Shown here in pieces: positions 55,101 to 64,000 of a stretch of 64,000 nt of DNA. The notes beneath the pieces were generated by a model. The model worked only from the letters and a program-made list of their open reading frames with translations. It made no database searches and had not been told where the DNA came from. The position numbers and the translations under genes are program-made. The first letter of the stretch is position 1, and the number at the start of each line of letters is the position of its first letter. This DNA is from Candidatus Poribacteria bacterium (GTDB lineage: Bacteria; Poribacteria; WGA-4E; UBA9662). The stretch spans positions 15,464 through 79,463 of the forward strand of contig PAQF01000005.1 in assembly GCA_002709695.1 (NCBI GenBank), read 5' to 3'.

Positions 55101-55680
55101 AGACAACACTCTCTATTTATCCTGTACTTCCTCTCCAGTTTGCCCATCTCTTGCTTACACTAAAAGATGGACATAGGTTTGAAACCCTTGTCAGGCAATC
55201 TGAATATTGATATAAGGGTAGGGGTGACAGGTAAATATTAGATAAGCTTCCTTCAGCTGTACCAACTACGAGCGAACTGACATCTTAAAAAAAGAATACC
55301 CACTTTGTCATCAGTTTAGACTTAGTAGATACAACGAAATCTAGGCACCCTGGAAAACTTCGGGAGAAGGTATCTTTGAGCGTGTCCAGTGGATAGCGCA
55401 ACATCTAAAAAATCGCTACTTCGTCGATCTAATCTTTAAAAACTTCCTGGACCAGGATTCCTCCTCCTTCCTAACATAACAGGCACCATTAGAACCACTT
55501 GTCTCATCTGGTACACCTACCTTATTTTTAGCAATCCTTTTACTATTTACCTTAGAGTTATTGAAATCAAATTCATACAAACAATAATGCGCTGTTTTTG
55601 ATTATTTCAGAAAAATTCCGAACAAAAAATTGGTTGCTTTGTCTAAACAGAGCGAAACAAAAATTTTGGAGGATAATCAA
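55101..55680. other. Gene-poor region with possible gene remnants
   Basis: About 580 bases. One frame (55246-55476) reads FSCTNYERTDILKKEYPL and, after a TAG at 55342-55344, ERVQWIAQHLKNRYFVDLIF. The frame is open enough to look like an old gene with an in-frame stop, but the family is not recognisable. Nothing else stands out. Confidence 0.3.
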
Positions 55681-56256
55681 ATGTTAAAGCAAATTTCAAT
55701 GGTACTAGCAATATTGTGCGCTAGTATTACAGTAACTATTTTCCCTGCTATGTCAGAGGTCAATCAACCTGATCCTACAGCGAAAGAAAAGCTGATAGAA
55801 AACGGCAAAAAAACATCAAAATCAAAAGAAATTAACAAAAAGAGAGGATTCCATCGTCATGGTGATATGCGACGTAAAGGACGCTTTGGTCATGATGAAC
55901 AAAGAAGACATAAAAGCCGTTTCGACGGCCGAAGACATGGTAAATCAGACGCAAATTATCGGAGAGATGGGCATAATCGCAAGTACCCACGCAGAGAACA
56001 ACGAATGTCACAAAACAGGCCATTTAGCAGAGATCATCGAAGCTCTGGCATTGTAAAGGGTAAATCTGGCAGCATTTTACCATCCAAATTAGCCAAACGC
56101 TTGACAAGTGAACAGCGCCAAGAAGTACAACAAGCGGTTAGAAAACTGCGTCAACAACATCAAACACAAATGAAGTCAAAAATAGCAAACTTACTGAAGG
56201 AATACAACATAGAATCACCTAAACCTAAGGGAAAGAAAGCAACAGTAAACGAATAA
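55681..56256 (+). CDS. Exported, very basic protein with LTxEQ-type helix
   Basis: About 191 residues. GGAGG is 8 bases before the ATG at 55681, so the longer frame from 55630 is not needed. A signal peptide (MLKQISMVLAILCASITVTI and a MSE-like site) precedes a region full of Arg, His and Lys (RRHKSRFDGRRHGKSD). The C-terminal helix has KLAKRLTSEQRQEVQQAVRK, which resembles the LTxxQ motif of the periplasmic Spy/CpxP/Zn-resistance group. The strong positive charge is odd for an exported protein; it could bind an acidic polymer or metal. A terminator follows. Confidence 0.75.
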   Translation: MLKQISMVLAILCASITVTIFPAMSEVNQPDPTAKEKLIENGKKTSKSKEINKKRGFHRHGDMRRKGRFGHDEQRRHKSRFDGRRHGKSDANYRRDGHNRKYPRREQRMSQNRPFSRDHRSSGIVKGKSGSILPSKLAKRLTSEQRQEVQQAVRKLRQQHQTQMKSKIANLLKEYNIESPKPKGKKATVNE

Positions 56257-56740: not shown

Positions 56741-57526
56741 CTAGTATTCCGTTTTGACGCTACTCCAAAACACGGAAAGCTTAGCTTGAGGGTTAACAGC
56801 TAACGCCTCTTTTATACCCATCTCCATATATTGCCCAATTTCCTTTTCGCTCAAGGCTCGATCCCATAAGCGGACTTCATCAATCAAACCAGTAGGAATA
56901 TAGTTCAGTCGGTCGCAATCTTGACCAATAGCCCACGGGTCGTCGCTAACTTTCAGTTTACCTTGCGGATTACCTTTCGCTACTTCCTTACCATCATAGA
57001 ATATTTTGCCTTCCTTGCCATCATTACTGCAAGCGAGATGAACCCATTTTTCAGCGTCCGGTGGTGCGGTTCCAATATCGATTTGCCCAGCCTCACCTGC
57101 CAACCTGAGTTTCATATTTCCAGCTTCGCTAAACAGTCCGTACTGAACACGACCAGCACAACCTCCATGAACCGATTTACCCACAATTTGCCTGGTACCG
57201 CCAACCCAGTCTTCGATATTCACCCAAGCCATAAAAGTGAATTCATTGACATTCATTTGCTTGTTACTTTCCACTTTAACCCAAGTACCAGCATTAGTTT
57301 CAAAACGTAAAGCTTTACCAAATTTACCTTTCTCCCACTTAAGTGGACCTTCTAGTATGCCATGATTGTTATTCCCACTGGCATCCTCGGCTTTTTCACC
57401 CTTTCCTTCATCAAAAGGAAGATAGACAATCAAACCATCGGTGAATCCTGCAGCCAAAGACAAAGAAGGTATAATAATCAGTACCAAGCTAATAACAGTT
57501 CCTAAAACAGCAAACTTATTCTTCAT
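56741..57526 (-). CDS. Exported LamG-domain protein with KLxxxW tail
   Basis: About 261 residues. A signal peptide (VISLVLIIIPSLSLAAG) precedes a LamG/concanavalin-like domain: DGLIVYLPFDEGKGEKAEDA and ASGNNNHGIL, TRQIVGKSVHGG, YGLFSEAGNMKLRLAG, HLACSNDGKEGKIFYDGKEV and TGLIDEVRLWDRALSEKEI. The last residues AVNPQAKLSVFWSSVK match the tails of the four exported proteins further right. Such LamG proteins may bind sugars at the cell surface. It is read alone, with a 450-base gap upstream. Confidence 0.85.
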   Translation of the reverse strand: MKNKFAVLGTVISLVLIIIPSLSLAAGFTDGLIVYLPFDEGKGEKAEDASGNNNHGILEGPLKWEKGKFGKALRFETNAGTWVKVESNKQMNVNEFTFMAWVNIEDWVGGTRQIVGKSVHGGCAGRVQYGLFSEAGNMKLRLAGEAGQIDIGTAPPDAEKWVHLACSNDGKEGKIFYDGKEVAKGNPQGKLKVSDDPWAIGQDCDRLNYIPTGLIDEVRLWDRALSEKEIGQYMEMGIKEALAVNPQAKLSVFWSSVKTEY

Positions 57527-57976
57527 CGTAAACTCCTTGAATTATTTAGAATACTACCATTTCCTAAGACTTCAGTTTGAAGACAATATAACATCCAACT
57601 AACACAATCATGCAAGCTATGTTAACATTTGTCAATACTCTAGAAACATAATTGAAACCAAAAAACCATCAAAAATAAAATAATAACTGCTTTGGGTCAG
57701 AAGAACCATTAGACAACTACCAAACCTATTAAGTTGCATTGCATCAATGAAAATAATTAAGACAGGTAAAGTTCGAAAAAATCTTATTGTTAGCTACACT
57801 CGTGTGTCGAATCTATAAAAATAAATATTGTTTAGCTTACTAACACAAACCATAGAATTTGAGCCTAATCTTTAGTGTGAAAATTTGTTTACACTACAAC
57901 CATCAATTTTTTTCATTCTACCAAGTGTATTTTATACTGTGAACTGTGATGTCATAAATAAGGGGAACGAATTCAA
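57527..57976. other. Divergent intergenic region with a weak promoter
   Basis: About 450 AT-rich bases. TATACT at 57933-57938 with TTTTCA 17 bases upstream is a weak promoter candidate for the metal exporter gene. Otherwise nothing stands out. Confidence 0.35.
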
Positions 57977-58948
57977 ATGCGACTAGAGCCCAATTCCAAG
58001 CTGCAACACTGGCAACACACACACACTTTCGGACAAGATCAAAAGCGGCCCGGTGAACTGCGCACGATCATCGTTATCATTATCACAGCTACCATGATGA
58101 TGGTCGAAATCACAACGGGTAGCATCTTCGGCTCAATGGCCTTACTGGCCGATGGCTTACACATGGCATCCCATGCCGTAGCATTGACAATCAATGCCTT
58201 CGCCTACATTTATGCCCGTCGCCACGCTCAAGACATCAAATACAGCTTTGGCACTGGCAAAGTCAACGCTCTAGGTGGATTTACCGGTGCAGTATTACTA
58301 GCTATCTTTGCGCTGATGATGATATGGGAAAGTGTAGAACGAATTATCTACCCTGTAGAAATTGCATACAATCAAGCTATTTTTGTCGCAATCCTCGGTT
58401 TAATCATCAACGGAGCATCGGTCTTTATCTTGGGTCACCATCACAATCACGCTGACGAAGACCATGATCATCACCATGATCATAACCATAACCATCACCA
58501 TCACCATCACCATGATCATAACCTCCGGGCTGCATACCTTCACGTCTTAGCCGACGCTCTCACCTCGCTCTTAGCCATAGTTGCTTTGCTGGCAGCCAAA
58601 TATATTGGTATAGTCTGGATGGACCCACTAATGGGAATTGTCGGTGCTGCCTTGGTTTCACGATGGTCTCTGGGACTGTTGCGTACAACCAGTACTGTCT
58701 TACTGGACAACCAAGGCCCAGAGCACCTGCTATCAAAAATAACACAATGTATTGAGGATGATAATAATAAGATTACTGATCTTCACCTGTGGTCGATTGG
58801 ACCTAACATTTACAGTGTTATCATCTCAGTTGTAGCGCGAACCCCACAACCACCAGAATACTACAAAGACTTGATTCCTTCTAGCCTAGGCTTAGTCCAT
58901 CTCACTGTCGAAGTTCATGAATGGATTCAAGAAAATTCAAACAATTAG
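57977..58948 (+). CDS. Cation diffusion facilitator metal exporter, DmeF type
   Basis: About 323 residues with six predicted membrane segments. The N-terminal HTHTFGQDQKRPGEL motif is typical of DmeF-type exporters. Metal-binding residues are in LLADGLHMASHAVAL (helix II) and HVLADALTSLLAI (helix V), and between helices IV and V lies a His/Asp-rich loop with a run of seven His residues. The C-terminal cytoplasmic domain ends with VHLTVEVHEW. It probably expels Co, Ni, Zn or Mn from the cytoplasm. AGGGGAACG lies before the ATG. No regulator gene is next to it. Confidence 0.88.
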   Translation: MRLEPNSKLQHWQHTHTFGQDQKRPGELRTIIVIIITATMMMVEITTGSIFGSMALLADGLHMASHAVALTINAFAYIYARRHAQDIKYSFGTGKVNALGGFTGAVLLAIFALMMIWESVERIIYPVEIAYNQAIFVAILGLIINGASVFILGHHHNHADEDHDHHHDHNHNHHHHHHHDHNLRAAYLHVLADALTSLLAIVALLAAKYIGIVWMDPLMGIVGAALVSRWSLGLLRTTSTVLLDNQGPEHLLSKITQCIEDDNNKITDLHLWSIGPNIYSVIISVVARTPQPPEYYKDLIPSSLGLVHLTVEVHEWIQENSNN

Positions 58949-59053
58949 AAAAAGCTTAAACTAATAATAAGATCCAGTTAGTTCATTAAGGTTTACATAT
59001 ATCAAAATCTTCTTTATTGCGAAGAAGTATAAGCACTAACTGAAGAATAAAAC
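58949..59053. other. Short convergent gap with a weak hairpin
   Basis: CTTCTT (59009-59014) and AAGAAG (59022-59027) can pair, but no T run follows. It may mark the end of either the metal exporter or the LamG transcript. Confidence 0.3.
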
Positions 59054-59836
59054 TCACCTTTTTCTGAGTTCCCCCCAGGTTATGGCAAGTTTACTCAACG
59101 GAGAAACTGACAGCGAAACTTCTAAACCTTCATTCATAACTGTTTTTATATCGTCTGCATTCAAAGCCACATTAAATAAACCTACATCGTCAATGATACC
59201 TTTGGTATACCTATCATAGTGTCGCCCGATAGCCACTACCCCTTCACTAGTTCCATAACCACTCTTTTTGTTAAAATCAGCTTCAGCCTCTTTTTTTCCA
59301 TCTATCCAAATTGAACTTTTCCCCTGAGAAGCATCCGCTACAGCAGCGACAAAATGCCATTTGTCATCTGCCACCACGGAGGTGCCATCAGCCCGAAAAC
59401 TTGCTCCTCCTTCATCCCTTAGATACAAGGTCACCTTAGGGCTACTTCCATCATTCCAAAGCAGATACCAAGGCAAAGCTTGAGATTTGTCTTCATAATT
59501 CTTACCAACCAATGAGCCGCCGACCTTACTCCCTTTATAATGAACAGTAATAGTAAAGGACTTCCCAGCAGCAAACCCGAGGTTCTTCGAGTGAGGGATC
59601 GAAACCCAATCGTCAGTCCCATCAAACTCTAACGCCTTACCAAAACGCCCTTTTACCCATTTGGGACCGGCTTCAATTGCACCATCATGACCATTACCAG
59701 TCGAATCCGACGCAGTTTTTCCATTTCCTTCATCAAAAAGCCAAGCGGCAACTATCGATTCAGGCACAATTTTCGCCCAACTCACCTGAACCAGAAACAT
59801 AAATAAAGCAACAGAAAAAACAGTAGTTTTTTTCAC
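59054..59836 (-). CDS. Exported LamG-domain protein, tandem copy 1, with KLxxxW tail
   Basis: About 260 residues. The start is taken as GTG at 59834-59836, since GGAGG lies 9 bases upstream; TTG six bases earlier would be too close to the ribosome site. A signal peptide (TTVFSVALFMFLVQVSWA) precedes a LamG domain: VAAWLFDEGNGKTASDSTGN, LEFDGTDDWVSIPHSKNLGF, KWHFVAAVADASQGKSSIWI and GIIDDVGLFNVALNADDI. The C-terminus SVSPLSKLAITWGELRKR is the shared tail. It is a recent duplicate of the gene at 60068-60862, with which it shares most codons and its 5' leader. Confidence 0.85.
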   Translation of the reverse strand: MKKTTVFSVALFMFLVQVSWAKIVPESIVAAWLFDEGNGKTASDSTGNGHDGAIEAGPKWVKGRFGKALEFDGTDDWVSIPHSKNLGFAAGKSFTITVHYKGSKVGGSLVGKNYEDKSQALPWYLLWNDGSSPKVTLYLRDEGGASFRADGTSVVADDKWHFVAAVADASQGKSSIWIDGKKEAEADFNKKSGYGTSEGVVAIGRHYDRYTKGIIDDVGLFNVALNADDIKTVMNEGLEVSLSVSPLSKLAITWGELRKR

Positions 59837-59873
59837 TGACAAAACCCTCCCTGTAAAATCGCTTAAATCACGA
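59828..59873 (-). repeat. Conserved 5' leader shared by the two tandem LamG genes (copy 1)
   Basis: From CAGTTTTTTTCACTGACAAA through the ribosome site to AATCACGACTA, the leader is nearly identical to that upstream of the second LamG gene at about 60851-60901 (one T/C difference). The sequence conservation ends just beyond, so the duplication included the ribosome site and possibly part of the promoter. Confidence 0.6.
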
Positions 59874-60067
59874 CTAGGCTACGTGTGTCTACCATTCAAC
59901 GGGCCTCAATCACAAACATACGTTTCATACGCCCGGTAACGGAAACAACAACTTCAACATTTATCTACTGTGAACCCAAACCATCAAATTAACTTAGATC
60001 TCAGGATCCACGATTGCTTCTTCCAAACATCTACTGGACGAAAAAAGCAGGAACTGTAATATCCAGC

Positions 60068-60862
60068 TTACCTTTTCCTGATTTCTCCCCAGGTTATAGC
60101 AAGTTTATTTCGGGTGGAAACTGCCGTTGAAACTCCTCCTAAACCAGCATCCATAATCGTTTTTATATCGTCTGCATTCAAAGCCACATTAAATAAACCC
60201 ACATCGTCAATAATGCCTTTGGTATACCTATCATAGTGTCGTCCGATAGCGACGACCCCTTCATTAGTTCCATAGCCACTGTTCTTGTTGAAATCAGCTT
60301 CAGCCTCTTTTTTCCCATCTATCCAAATCGAGCTTTTTCCTTTGGAAGCATCCGCTACAGCGGCAATAAAATGCCATTTGTCATCTGCAATAGCAGAGGT
60401 ACCATTAGCCCGAAAACTCGCTTTCGCTTCATCCCTTAAAAACAAGGTCACCTTAGGACTACTTCCATCATTCCAAAGTAGATACCAAGGCAAGGCTTGA
60501 GATTTATCTTCATATCCCTTACCAAACAAGGAGCCGCCGACCTTACTTCCTTTAAAATGAACTGTAATAGAAAAAGACTTCCCAGCAGCAAACCCGAGGT
60601 TTTTTGAGTGTGGAACCGAAACCCAATCGTCAGTCCCATCAAACTCTAACGCCTTACCAAAACGTCCTGTTACCCATTTAGCACCCTTTTCAATTTTCCC
60701 ACTATGACCATTGCCGGTTGAATCCGCAACAATATTTCCCTTCCCTTCATCAAAAAGCCAAACGGCTACCATAGATTCTGAATTAACCTTCGCCAAGCTC
60801 ACCTGAACCAAAAACATAAATAAAGCAACAAAAACAACAGAAACAACAGCAGTTTTTTTCAC
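60068..60862 (-). CDS. Exported LamG-domain protein, tandem copy 2, with KLxxxW tail
   Basis: About 264 residues and very similar to the gene at 59054, with the same signal peptide layout (VVFVALFMFLVQVSLA), the same LamG core (VWLFDEGKGNIVADSTGNGH, LEFDGTDDWVSVPHSKNLGF) and the tail AVSTRNKLAITWGEIRKR. The start is GTG at 60860-60862 behind GGAGG. Differences are concentrated in the linker before the tail and at the signal peptide, suggesting selection keeps the core and the tail. The duplicate pair has about 200 bases between copies. Confidence 0.85.
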   Translation of the reverse strand: MKKTAVVSVVFVALFMFLVQVSLAKVNSESMVAVWLFDEGKGNIVADSTGNGHSGKIEKGAKWVTGRFGKALEFDGTDDWVSVPHSKNLGFAAGKSFSITVHFKGSKVGGSLFGKGYEDKSQALPWYLLWNDGSSPKVTLFLRDEAKASFRANGTSAIADDKWHFIAAVADASKGKSSIWIDGKKEAEADFNKNSGYGTNEGVVAIGRHYDRYTKGIIDDVGLFNVALNADDIKTIMDAGLGGVSTAVSTRNKLAITWGEIRKR

Positions 60863-61179
60863 TGACAAAACCCTCCCTGTAAAATCGCCTAAATCACGAC
60901 TAAGTTATATTAATCGACCATAATAGCAAATTAGAGTATACATAATTTCACATCTTACTCCCACAATAAACTTCACATTTGACTACGAAATTTAAATCAA
61001 GTTAAAAATCCCTGCCAAAACACTTTTGCCTGAAAATAATATACAACCCTGAAATTCATACAAAATAACACAAACATTAAATATAAGGATATGATACAAT
61101 AGACATAAGGACATAATACAATTACGGCTATTAAGGTATAGCTTAAACCAAATATTATTAGAACTGAGGAAAACTATCA
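60863..61179. other. Divergent intergenic region
   Basis: About 320 AT-rich bases. The left end holds the leader copy shared by the LamG genes; the right end should hold the promoter of the discoidin-like gene. No RNA gene is seen. Confidence 0.35.
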
Positions 61180-61923
61180 ATGGTTAAACTAACATCTTTT
61201 TGCTACCAAGTGTGCCTTTTGCTAATAGCAGTGCTATTGGTCTGCCCACTCGCCACTGCACTTCATGAGCCTAAAAAAGGCCCTACCGAATGGCGTGGCT
61301 ACAAATTTAAAAAGCAGGACATAAAAAAAGCTACGGATGAATGCGACGCTGGAGGCAAACCTGGACCTGAATATGTCCCAACAGTACGGGATGGTGAACC
61401 TAATCTAGCCTTACTCGAACAAGCAAAACACAAAGTTCTAAACACAATCGTTGGCCATTGCCCCAAACGTCATTGCGACCACTACCTTAACGATGGTTTT
61501 TACAACAACTGCCGTAGTTGGATTATGGGTGCTGCACCGTCATGGGCGCAAATTGATATCGGCGAAGTCGGGAATATCAATCGGATAATTTTTGGTAGTG
61601 ACCACTCACAAGGCTTTGCAGATCGAACTTGTATGGACTTTGACATTCTCGTTGCAGAAAACAAAGCAGCCGAGAAATCAAATGCCGCTACTTGGAAAAT
61701 GGTCTATGAACACAAAAAAGGTGACCCTGTTCGTGAAACAACAGAATTCACGTTTAAGGACGTTCAGGCCCGGTGGGTTCGTATAGACATACGAGGTGCT
61801 GCGGGAGCTCGTATCGATGAACTGGAAATCTATGGTGGAAGCAACCCTTTAGCCGTTGATCCTGTCAGCAAACTGACAACAACCTGGTCAGAGATAAAAA
61901 CTTATCCCGATTACAGCAGATAA
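61180..61923 (+). CDS. Exported Cys-rich discoidin-like protein with KLxxxW tail (intact copy)
   Basis: About 247 residues. A signal peptide (CLLLIAVLLVCPLATA) is followed by a Trp/Cys-rich N-terminal module (GPTEWRGYKFKKQD, CDAGGKPGPEYVPTVRDGEP) and an F5/8-type-C-like domain: NLALLEQAKHKVLNTI, NDGFYNNCRSWIMG, WAQIDIGEVGNINRIIFGSD and WVRIDIRGAAGARIDELEIY. The tail AVDPVSKLTTTWSEIK matches those of the LamG genes. GAGGAAAA lies before the ATG. It is the first of a tandem pair with the broken copy downstream, 28 bases apart. Confidence 0.85.
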   Translation: MVKLTSFCYQVCLLLIAVLLVCPLATALHEPKKGPTEWRGYKFKKQDIKKATDECDAGGKPGPEYVPTVRDGEPNLALLEQAKHKVLNTIVGHCPKRHCDHYLNDGFYNNCRSWIMGAAPSWAQIDIGEVGNINRIIFGSDHSQGFADRTCMDFDILVAENKAAEKSNAATWKMVYEHKKGDPVRETTEFTFKDVQARWVRIDIRGAAGARIDELEIYGGSNPLAVDPVSKLTTTWSEIKTYPDYSR

Positions 61924-61951
61924 AACTTCCCACACACAGGGGGGATTGTAT

Positions 61952-62773
61952 TTGAACATCAAATCTGATCCCCCTACACAATTTAGCCAGATTGAAAATT
62001 TGCAAGTCGCTAAACCAACGCGTGTCTGCTATCGTATTTGTTCCCTTCTGATAACATCATTGGTCGCCACTTCTTTAGCTGTAGGAGGCCATAAACCCGA
62101 TAAGGGGCCTACCGAATGGCGCGGCTACAAATTTAAAGAACAGGATATGAAAGCAGCTGAGAAGGAATGCAACGCTGGAGGTAAGCCATTACCTGAATAT
62201 GTCCCAACAGTACGGGAAGGCGAACCCAATCTTGCCCTACTCAAACAATCATCTTTCAAAGTTCTGAATACGATAGGAAATGGGGCACACTGTCCTAAAC
62301 CTCACAACCCTAATGGTAAAGCTAAGGGGCGGCATTGCGGCAAATTCCTTAATGATGGTTTTTACAACAATTGTCGTAGCTGGATTATTGGCCCTCTAGA
62401 ATCATGGGGCTAAATAGATATTGGGAGTGTAGGAACAGTCAATCGAGTGTTTCTGGGTAGTGATCATTCGCAAGGGTTTGCAGATCGCGTGTTATCCGAC
62501 TTTGATATCTTGGTTTCAACCACCAAAGCTCCAGACAATTCGAATGCGCCTTCTTGGAAAAAGGTCTACAAGCACAAAGAGGGCCCCGTTCGTGAAACCA
62601 CAGAGATTAAGTTTAAAGAAACCCAAGCACAATGGGTTCGTATACACATACGAGGTGCTGCGGGAGTTCGTATCGATGAATTGGAAATCTATGGTGGAAG
62701 CAACCCTTTATCCATTGACTCTGCCAGCAAACTAACAACAATCTGGTCACAAATTAAAATTGATTCCCAGTAG
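61952..62773 (+). pseudogene. Discoidin-like paralogue broken by one in-frame TAA
   Basis: 274 codons from TTG 61952 (GGGGGG is about 7 bases upstream) to TAG 62771-62773, with the same modules as the gene at 61180: GPTEWRGYKFKEQD, NDGFYNNCRSWIIG, HSQGFADRVLSDFDILV, IRGAAGVRIDELEIYGG and the tail SIDSASKLTTIWSQIK. The only disruption is TAA at 62411-62413 in ESWG(stop)IDIGSVG, exactly where the intact copy has the Gln codon CAA in SWAQIDIGEVG. Both halves remain alignable, so the mutation is recent or the stop is read through. The first part alone would encode an exported stub of about 153 residues. Confidence 0.8.
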
Positions 62774-62874: not shown

Positions 62875-64000
62875 ATGCCGTTTTCAATGACGCTAAAAAA
62901 CAACTGGCCATCAGCTTATCTCTGCATGTTGGGTTTGATTACGTTAATCAACGCAAATCAGGTTCTCGCTGATTTTACCAATGTCACTCGAGCTGCCGGT
63001 CTAGACAGATATGAAGTCGACTCGTTCGATAGTTCTGCTCATGGCGTAGCTTGGGCAGATTACGATAATGACGGGGATCTCGATCTCTATCTCCCTTACC
63101 GCTTTAAGTTCAGCCGGTTCTGGGAGAACAATGGTAACGGAACCTTTTCCGATGTAACAAAAAAAATGGGTATAACAGGATATATGAGCGCTTGTTTCGC
63201 AGATTACGACAAAGATGGTGATCTCGATCTTTTTGTCATGAATTTCTTGAGGCCAAATGCCCTTTACAAAAACAACGGTGATAAAACCTTTTCTGATGTA
63301 ACTCCTTTTAGCCAAATAGGTGATGATCGTGGAGATACTTATGGTATTACGTTAGGAGACTACGACAAAGATGGAGATCTCGATTTCTATGTCACCAGCT
63401 ATCTGTTTTATCCTGATCAGTTCTATGGCAATAACGGAGACGGTACTTTCACTAATCTCTCTGATAAATTGGGTTTTAAGAACTTAGAAGAACGAGGTTT
63501 GGGAGTCATGTCACTGGATTACGATAATGACAGGGATCTAGACATCTACGTGGCTAACGATTTCGGGGATGATGTCCTATACCAAAATCAGGGTGACGGT
63601 ACTTTTCGCGATGTTGCCAAAGAGGTAGGTATAGACTTGCCCTTTAATGCCATGGGTGTAACCGCTGGTGACTACGATAACGATCTTGATCTAGATATCT
63701 ATGTTACAAATGGAGGCACCAACGTCTTGTACCGAAATAATGGCGATGGCACGTTCACTGATGTTGCCAAAGAAGCAGGTGTCGAAGATCGTCCAGGTAT
63801 CGGCTGGGGAACCTCTTTTCTGGACTATGATAATGATGGTGACCTCGATCTTTACGTAGTTAATGGCAGTCTAGAAAACGTTGGAAAAATCCCGGGAAAC
63901 CCCAGTTGGCCAGACAGATCCGGCCCAAATGTTCTCTACAGGAATAATGGAGATGGAACCTTTACTGACGTCAGTGAGGTAGAAGGCGTAAAAGATGACG
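62875..64000 (+). CDS. Exported FG-GAP/VCBS-repeat protein, 3' end beyond window
   Basis: Open for 375 codons from ATG 62875 to the window edge. A signal peptide (LCMLGLITLINANQVLA) is followed by repeated calcium-binding loops of the DxDxDGDLD type: DYDNDGDLDLYL, DYDKDGDLDLFV, DYDKDGDLDFYV, DYDNDRDLDIYV, DYDNDLDLDIYV and DYDNDGDLDLYV, alternating with NNGDGTFTDV-type segments, each unit about 50 residues. Such repeats form a large propeller (integrin-like or CRTAC/ASPIC group). One loop has Arg and one has Leu in place of the conserved Gly. The rest of the protein is not seen. Confidence 0.9.
   Translation, partial: MPFSMTLKNNWPSAYLCMLGLITLINANQVLADFTNVTRAAGLDRYEVDSFDSSAHGVAWADYDNDGDLDLYLPYRFKFSRFWENNGNGTFSDVTKKMGITGYMSACFADYDKDGDLDLFVMNFLRPNALYKNNGDKTFSDVTPFSQIGDDRGDTYGITLGDYDKDGDLDFYVTSYLFYPDQFYGNNGDGTFTNLSDKLGFKNLEERGLGVMSLDYDNDRDLDIYVANDFGDDVLYQNQGDGTFRDVAKEVGIDLPFNAMGVTAGDYDNDLDLDIYVTNGGTNVLYRNNGDGTFTDVAKEAGVEDRPGIGWGTSFLDYDNDGDLDLYVVNGSLENVGKIPGNPSWPDRSGPNVLYRNNGDGTFTDVSEVEGVKDD

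Follow-up and report, generated by a model that had tools for sequence, protein, structure and literature searches.

Poribacteria, abundant symbionts of sponges, have not been cultured, and what is known of their surface biology comes from genomes only. Among described C-terminal signals, the closest to the element reported here are the C-terminal domains (CTDs) of type IX secretion: no more than the last 22 residues of the HBP35 CTD are needed for export of GFP by this system (PMC4804311, PMC11969387), and short type IX CTDs are found in Prevotella intermedia (PMC11969387). Kamke et al. 2014 detected CTDs in Poribacteria without finding secretion genes to go with them (PMC3909097). Here we analyzed a 64,000-nucleotide stretch of a Candidatus Poribacteria genome (contig PAQF01000005.1, positions 15,464 to 79,463; hereafter the window), in which five genes in one block encode the same short C-terminal tail. 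The tail is a peptide tag that is strictly C-terminal, under selection, and shared across the phylum by exported proteins that are otherwise unrelated, and we regard it as a putative and, on balance, probable sorting or anchoring signal for the outer surface.

The first-pass annotation of the window had reported the tail on five exported proteins of two different folds. All five tails are present, with their core motif codons located (Table 1), and a pattern scan finds exactly five sites of the type KLxxxWxx[ILVM][KR] in the window, all of them the reported tails. The two folds were likewise borne out: Pfam assigns three bodies to LamG_3 (PF13385) and that of P0004 to F5/8 type C (PF22633); the fifth gene is an F5/8 paralogue of P0004 (68% identical), and LamG and F5/8 bodies give no real alignment with each other (19 to 21% identity, negative scores). 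Export of all five holds for the four intact proteins and fails for the fifth gene, where an in-frame TAA at 62411-62413, with both flanks otherwise well preserved, puts the export signal and the tail in separate open frames, leaving four, not five, intact exported proteins. P0003 is a recent duplicate of P0002, their bodies being 85% identical. Independent bodies in the window alone therefore number three, and the case rests on the remainder of the genome.

We scanned the 5.2-Mb, A+T-rich source genome with a degenerate DNA pattern for KLxxxWxx[ILVM][KR], using the same pattern reversed as the control. The scan returned 113 sites genome-wide versus 18 for the control (Poisson P about 6e-51), and the matches are concentrated at C-termini. 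All 85 Poribacteria genomes examined, from 22 genera and 10 families, lie above their own reversed control, typically several-fold. The same kind of scan gave no consistent excess of the motif in ten genomes of other groups, and of 79 Planctomycetota genomes, just 1 has a stricter form of the motif, which lies on two contigs, including one of 4.3 kb. Among the matches listed from a scan of GTDB, 69 of the 80 loci belong to Candidatus Poribacteria, and the remaining 11 are mostly chance matches. Also among the matches listed, real tails occur on contigs of 3.8 to 21.5 kb in metagenome-assembled genomes of Pseudomonadota, Planctomycetota, and Deltaproteobacteria (loci L104, L115, and L136); as these genomes are otherwise tail-poor, binning contamination is the likely explanation, with transfer as the alternative.

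The consensus of the tag, drawn from 202 proteins of the source genome and named Poribacteria contigs, is [LTF][APS]V[ED]PxGKL[AT]TTW[GA]x[ILV]K, about 16 residues. Only 1 to 6 residues separate it from the stop codon in 199 of the 202 proteins, and of 150 in-frame matches from named loci of Poribacteria, 148 lie within 12 residues of the stop. Two features that were not part of the search pattern are nearly constant, namely, V at position -5 (190/202) and a small residue directly after W (199/202). Each protein has one copy of the tag and none has two. The linker between body and tag varies, and the tag is independent of the fold that precedes it. In an alignment of 44 LamG homologues, the tail is the best-conserved section of the family, and its K249 and W254 (P0001 numbering) are the only invariant columns besides M1; most candidates for LamG proteins without a tail turned out to have diverged tails, with KV or RL in place of KL. 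The K, L, V, and T residues of the tag are kept constant although their synonymous codons vary freely, which indicates that selection acts on the peptide. A threshold for C-terminal hydrophobicity was reached by only 1 of 198 full-length proteins; the C-terminus of the tailed proteins is not a membrane anchor. L, W, and I are spaced at i, i+4, and i+7, which would suit an amphipathic helix.

A strong N-terminal hydrophobic stretch is present in 190 of the 198 full-length tailed proteins (about 95%), and 186 of the 198 have signals like those cut by signal peptidase I, as called by a simple heuristic and not by SignalP. The proteins are small (median, 264 amino acids; maximum, 451), and BLAST sorts their bodies into 32 clusters, the largest of which (LamG) holds 134 of 214 proteins. 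LamG, F5/8C, CBM9, CBM4/9, NPCBM, HmuY, WD40, and BNR domains are all represented; 3-keto-disaccharide hydrolase is matched weakly, and some families have no Pfam match; single domains of the lectin or carbohydrate-binding type predominate. The tailed HmuY-domain protein of the source genome (L044:3287-3934) belongs to a heme-binding family known from Bacteroidota. The first-pass annotation had proposed searching related genomes for the tail together with an N-terminal signal, and the combination proves to be phylum-wide. It had also named restriction to recent duplicates as grounds for abandoning the idea, a restriction that is at odds with occurrence in every genome of the phylum examined, on many distinct body clusters of several folds.

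The other ground it named was that the tail might be the last strand of a known domain. In the AlphaFold model of P0001, the predicted local distance difference test score (pLDDT) exceeds 90 across most of the body, and the tail is a helix outside the LamG fold with a pLDDT of 49 to 59. In an unrelated, beta-rich body, the tail is likewise a low-confidence helix outside the fold, and block-mean pLDDT of the tail is 40 to 59 across the two models. A low-confidence helix outside the fold is what would be expected of a free peptide awaiting a partner, which speaks against a last domain strand, and the claim of a separate element survives in both models. We also rejected the tail as part of LamG (PF13385) itself: the LamG_3 match in P0001 stops at residue 230 of 261, before the tail, the helix lies outside the fold, and bodies other than LamG have the tail too. 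A fold search with P0001 returned a generic lectin jelly-roll (an arabinanase module, sialidase lectin domains, and clostridial neurotoxin binding domains) and was uninformative on the tail; we read no toxin function into it.

Table 1. Tailed genes, their tags, and adjoining genes (ORF, open reading frame; positions are those of the window unless a locus is named)
Feature	Position	Strand	Evidence and remarks
P0001, exported LamG protein 1, 261 amino acids	56741..57526	-	ORF + Pfam LamG_3 E=2.7e-24; ends AVNPQAKLSVFWSSVK-TEY
Tag AVNPQAKLSVFWSSVK of P0001	56753..56800	-	Core motif codons 56753-56782
P0002, exported LamG protein 2	59054..59842	-	ORF + Pfam; ends SVSPLSKLAITWGELR-KR
Tag SVSPLSKLAITWGELR of P0002	59063..59110	-	Core motif codons 59063-59092
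P0003, exported LamG protein 3	60068..60868	-	ORF + Pfam; ends AVSTRNKLAITWGEIR-KR
Tag AVSTRNKLAITWGEIR of P0003	60077..60124	-	Core motif codons 60077-60106
P0004, exported F5/8 type C (galactose-binding-like) protein	61180..61923	+	ORF + Pfam; ends AVDPVSKLTTTWSEIK-TYPDYSR
Tag AVDPVSKLTTTWSEIK of P0004	61852..61899	+	Core motif codons 61870-61899
Second F5/8 type C gene, interrupted	61946..62773	+	Tail SIDSASKLTTIWSQIK-IDSQ downstream of in-frame TAA
Tag SIDSASKLTTIWSQIK of fifth gene	62711..62758	+	Core motif codons 62729-62758
FG-GAP/ASPIC-type exported protein with classical type IX CTD (PNPFNPETWIPFQLAE...SMVLIK)	62875..64000, on to the equivalent of 64746 beyond the window (L069:739-2610)	+	
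Further tailed F5/8 gene beyond the window	L069:2645-3430	+	About 34 bp after the FG-GAP/ASPIC gene

On the plus strand, the tailed F5/8 genes stand in one run with a gene for a classical CTD protein: tailed F5/8, interrupted tailed F5/8, FG-GAP with CTD, and tailed F5/8, separated by about 22, 101, and 34 bp. The CTD of the FG-GAP/ASPIC protein scores 26.3 bits against TIGR04183 (cut-off, 23). Neighbors of tailed genes cluster only into common families (PhyH, sulfatase, oxidoreductases, and TPR). A PhyH-type dioxygenase is the commonest non-tailed neighbor (36 loci among the Poribacteria loci L031 to L196), which probably reflects the abundance of PhyH in the phylum. Also within the window, an exported Arg/His-rich basic protein lies near a transporter of the cation diffusion facilitator type whose loop is His-rich (55630-56256 and 57977-58948), possibly a metal-handling neighborhood.

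The first-pass annotation placed the dedicated machinery outside the window, and this is the best-fitting reading: type IX parts are found elsewhere in the genome, with the reader of the tag itself putative. The source genome encodes a divergent SprA/Sov-like protein (hereafter SprA-like) as a single ORF of about 2170 amino acids (166 bits, E=8e-49; G000:C86:77854-81759, L211:11089-17583), and counterparts are present in 84 of the 85 Poribacteria genomes, the lone exception being 81% complete. In a genome of another family, a SprA homologue scores 508 bits over the frame, far above the remainder of the phylum (G035:C30:112-4146, L218); it is possibly a second SprA type or contamination. The PorV family is unusually large for a shuttle family, with 16 to 21 matches per genome in five genomes (the source genome and four relatives). 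C25 (PorU-like, sortase-like) peptidases of about 2000 amino acids score over the cut-off in 5 of 5 genomes, with two or three per genome, and in some genomes the C25 gene directly adjoins a PorV-family gene (e.g., G003:C4:319939-325230). Classical CTD cargo numbers 34 to 82 proteins per genome in nine genomes, and the listed CTD proteins of the source genome are at least 568 amino acids long, compared with the 451-amino-acid maximum of the tailed proteins. Exosortase was absent from 9 of 9 genomes searched. A GspD-type secretin is present, which makes a type II route possible.

The reading we favor is that Sec would export the tailed protein to the periplasm, where a receptor would bind the free tag as an amphipathic helix and carry the protein, in folded form, across or onto the outer membrane. 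Given a SprA-like protein, C25/PorU-like peptidases, an expanded PorV family, and CTD cargo in the same gene run, the likeliest receptor would be a branch of the type IX secretion system; that type IX reads the tag, perhaps through one PorV-family shuttle, is a tentative proposal to which we give somewhat less than an even chance. The tag would then be a minimal alternative to the 70- to 90-residue CTD of large poribacterial proteins. A second, phylum-specific sorting code parallel to CTDs, in which a helical tag of about 16 residues with its own receptor (a specialized PorV-family shuttle or outer-membrane machine) marks small single-domain proteins and the CTD marks large multidomain ones, seems to us close to an even proposition. 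Several findings weigh against a type IX reader. None of the five window proteins has a TIGR04183 match at E<=10, nor does any of the 44 LamG members, and the tail has no profile similarity to 14 poribacterial CTDs. The SprA-like protein falls below the curated equivalog cut-off (166 versus 200 bits), and neighbor clustering of 675 ORFs revealed no specific gene family that recurs beside tailed genes. Because nearly every genome of the phylum has both the type IX parts and the tail, their co-occurrence is no proof of a link. When set beside type IX type A cargo, the tailed proteins have a Sec-type signal (by the heuristic), the extreme C-terminal position, and a genome-encoded translocon, shuttle, and sortase, and they lack TIGR04183 or a beta-sandwich CTD (40 to 90 residues; motifs B, D, and E).

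The tag could instead belong to a sorting or secretion pathway apart from type IX, e.g., type II secretion or a lipid-anchoring branch with its own receptor. The dissimilarity of the tail to all NCBIfam families and to poribacterial CTDs would fit such a pathway, as would the seemingly separate size classes of tailed and CTD proteins and the GspD-type secretin, but the surroundings of tailed genes hold no recurring dedicated gene, a gene for CTD cargo lies in their midst, and exosortase is absent from the genomes searched; we consider this explanation unlikely, though the strongest of the rivals. Slightly less probable in our judgment is a docking tag, i.e., a ligand peptide by which exported binding modules would attach to a scaffold or an S-layer-like protein of the surface, much as dockerins do to cohesins, and which would play no part in passage across the outer membrane. 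This would account for bodies that are mainly binding modules (LamG, F5/8C, CBM9, CBM4/9, and NPCBM), for the helix-like spacing and detached position of the tail, and for many tailed genes per genome with a single copy per protein. However, docking modules can sit anywhere in a protein, and a position within 6 residues of the stop in nearly all proteins is more typical of sorting signals; no scaffold was identified.

Two further explanations would deprive the tail of any function. It might be a leftover inherited from a single ancient superfamily of proteins and propagated as these were duplicated and swapped domains, and tandem duplicates are indeed common (P0002 and P0003 among them), with the LamG cluster making up well over half of the tailed proteins. 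Unrelated folds have the tail, however (WD40, BNR, HmuY, CBM9, and NPCBM), and the tail is conserved above the bodies phylum-wide and through synonymous codon changes, which places it under selection and makes this account very improbable. Chance, as a compositional artefact of an A+T-rich genome, would be expected from the reversed pattern to give about 18 matches per genome, and some listed matches are accidental (a MazG-like protein in L042 and antisense frames); against the size of the excess over this control, its strictly C-terminal position, its recurrence in all 85 genomes of the phylum, the lack of a consistent excess in the ten other genomes, and the presence of a stricter form in a single one of the 79 Planctomycetota genomes, its probability is negligible. 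The proposal of a sorting, anchoring, or secretion signal thus stands as the best fit that we infer, having outlasted both the duplicate and the domain-strand objections.

We found no open-access paper that describes the tag, none that connects C-terminal signals of LamG proteins to Poribacteria, and none that ties the phylum to type IX secretion in a relevant way; the tag points to a sorting route without a description found in that literature. The SprA-like, PorV-family, and C25 proteins offer an answer to the question left open by Kamke et al. 2014, and the machinery becomes testable. As the tag occurs on tens of exported proteins per genome, it would give a direct read-out of the surface proteome and of the domains represented there, information that bears on host interaction and polysaccharide binding.

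Compared with known C-terminal signals, the tag most resembles the type IX CTD: it is modular, lies at the extreme C-terminus of export-signal-bearing, surface-type proteins of unrelated folds, and marks many cargo proteins per genome, in a genome that encodes SprA-like, PorV-family, and C25 proteins and classical CTDs. It differs in length (about 16 to 20 residues versus 40 to 90), in being a predicted helix where the CTD is made of beta-strands, in its conserved KLxTTWGxIK block, and in its restriction to small proteins. No NCBIfam family resembles the tail, in line with the first-pass remark that its sequence is like no known signal. With PEP-CTERM/exosortase and GlyGly-CTERM/rhombosortase, it shares a short C-terminal region common to many unrelated exported proteins of a genome (PMC1569441, PMC3237569); unlike them, it has no C-terminal transmembrane segment. 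Both were rejected as identifications, PEP-CTERM for want of a transmembrane helix with a basic end and of exosortase, and GlyGly-CTERM because the consensus has no GG and no transmembrane segment follows. Sortase signals of the LPXTG type are also C-terminal, modular, and found on surface proteins, but the tag has neither LPXTG nor a membrane anchor and its host is diderm. Dockerins are calcium-binding modules of 60 to 70 residues, and cargo of encapsulins and microcompartments is cytosolic. Like dockerins and the cargo peptides of those compartments, the tag sits at the end of the protein behind a flexible linker, serves diverse cargo, and has amphipathic-helix-like spacing; it is much shorter than a dockerin, and an encapsulin or microcompartment cargo peptide was rejected because the tailed proteins have export signals. 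Were its receptor unrelated to type IX secretion, the tag would come nearer to being categorically new. In its logic, the tag parallels these known sorting systems while belonging to none of CTD, PEP-CTERM, or GlyGly-CTERM; the C-terminal sorting signal is a kind already known, and what is new is the code.

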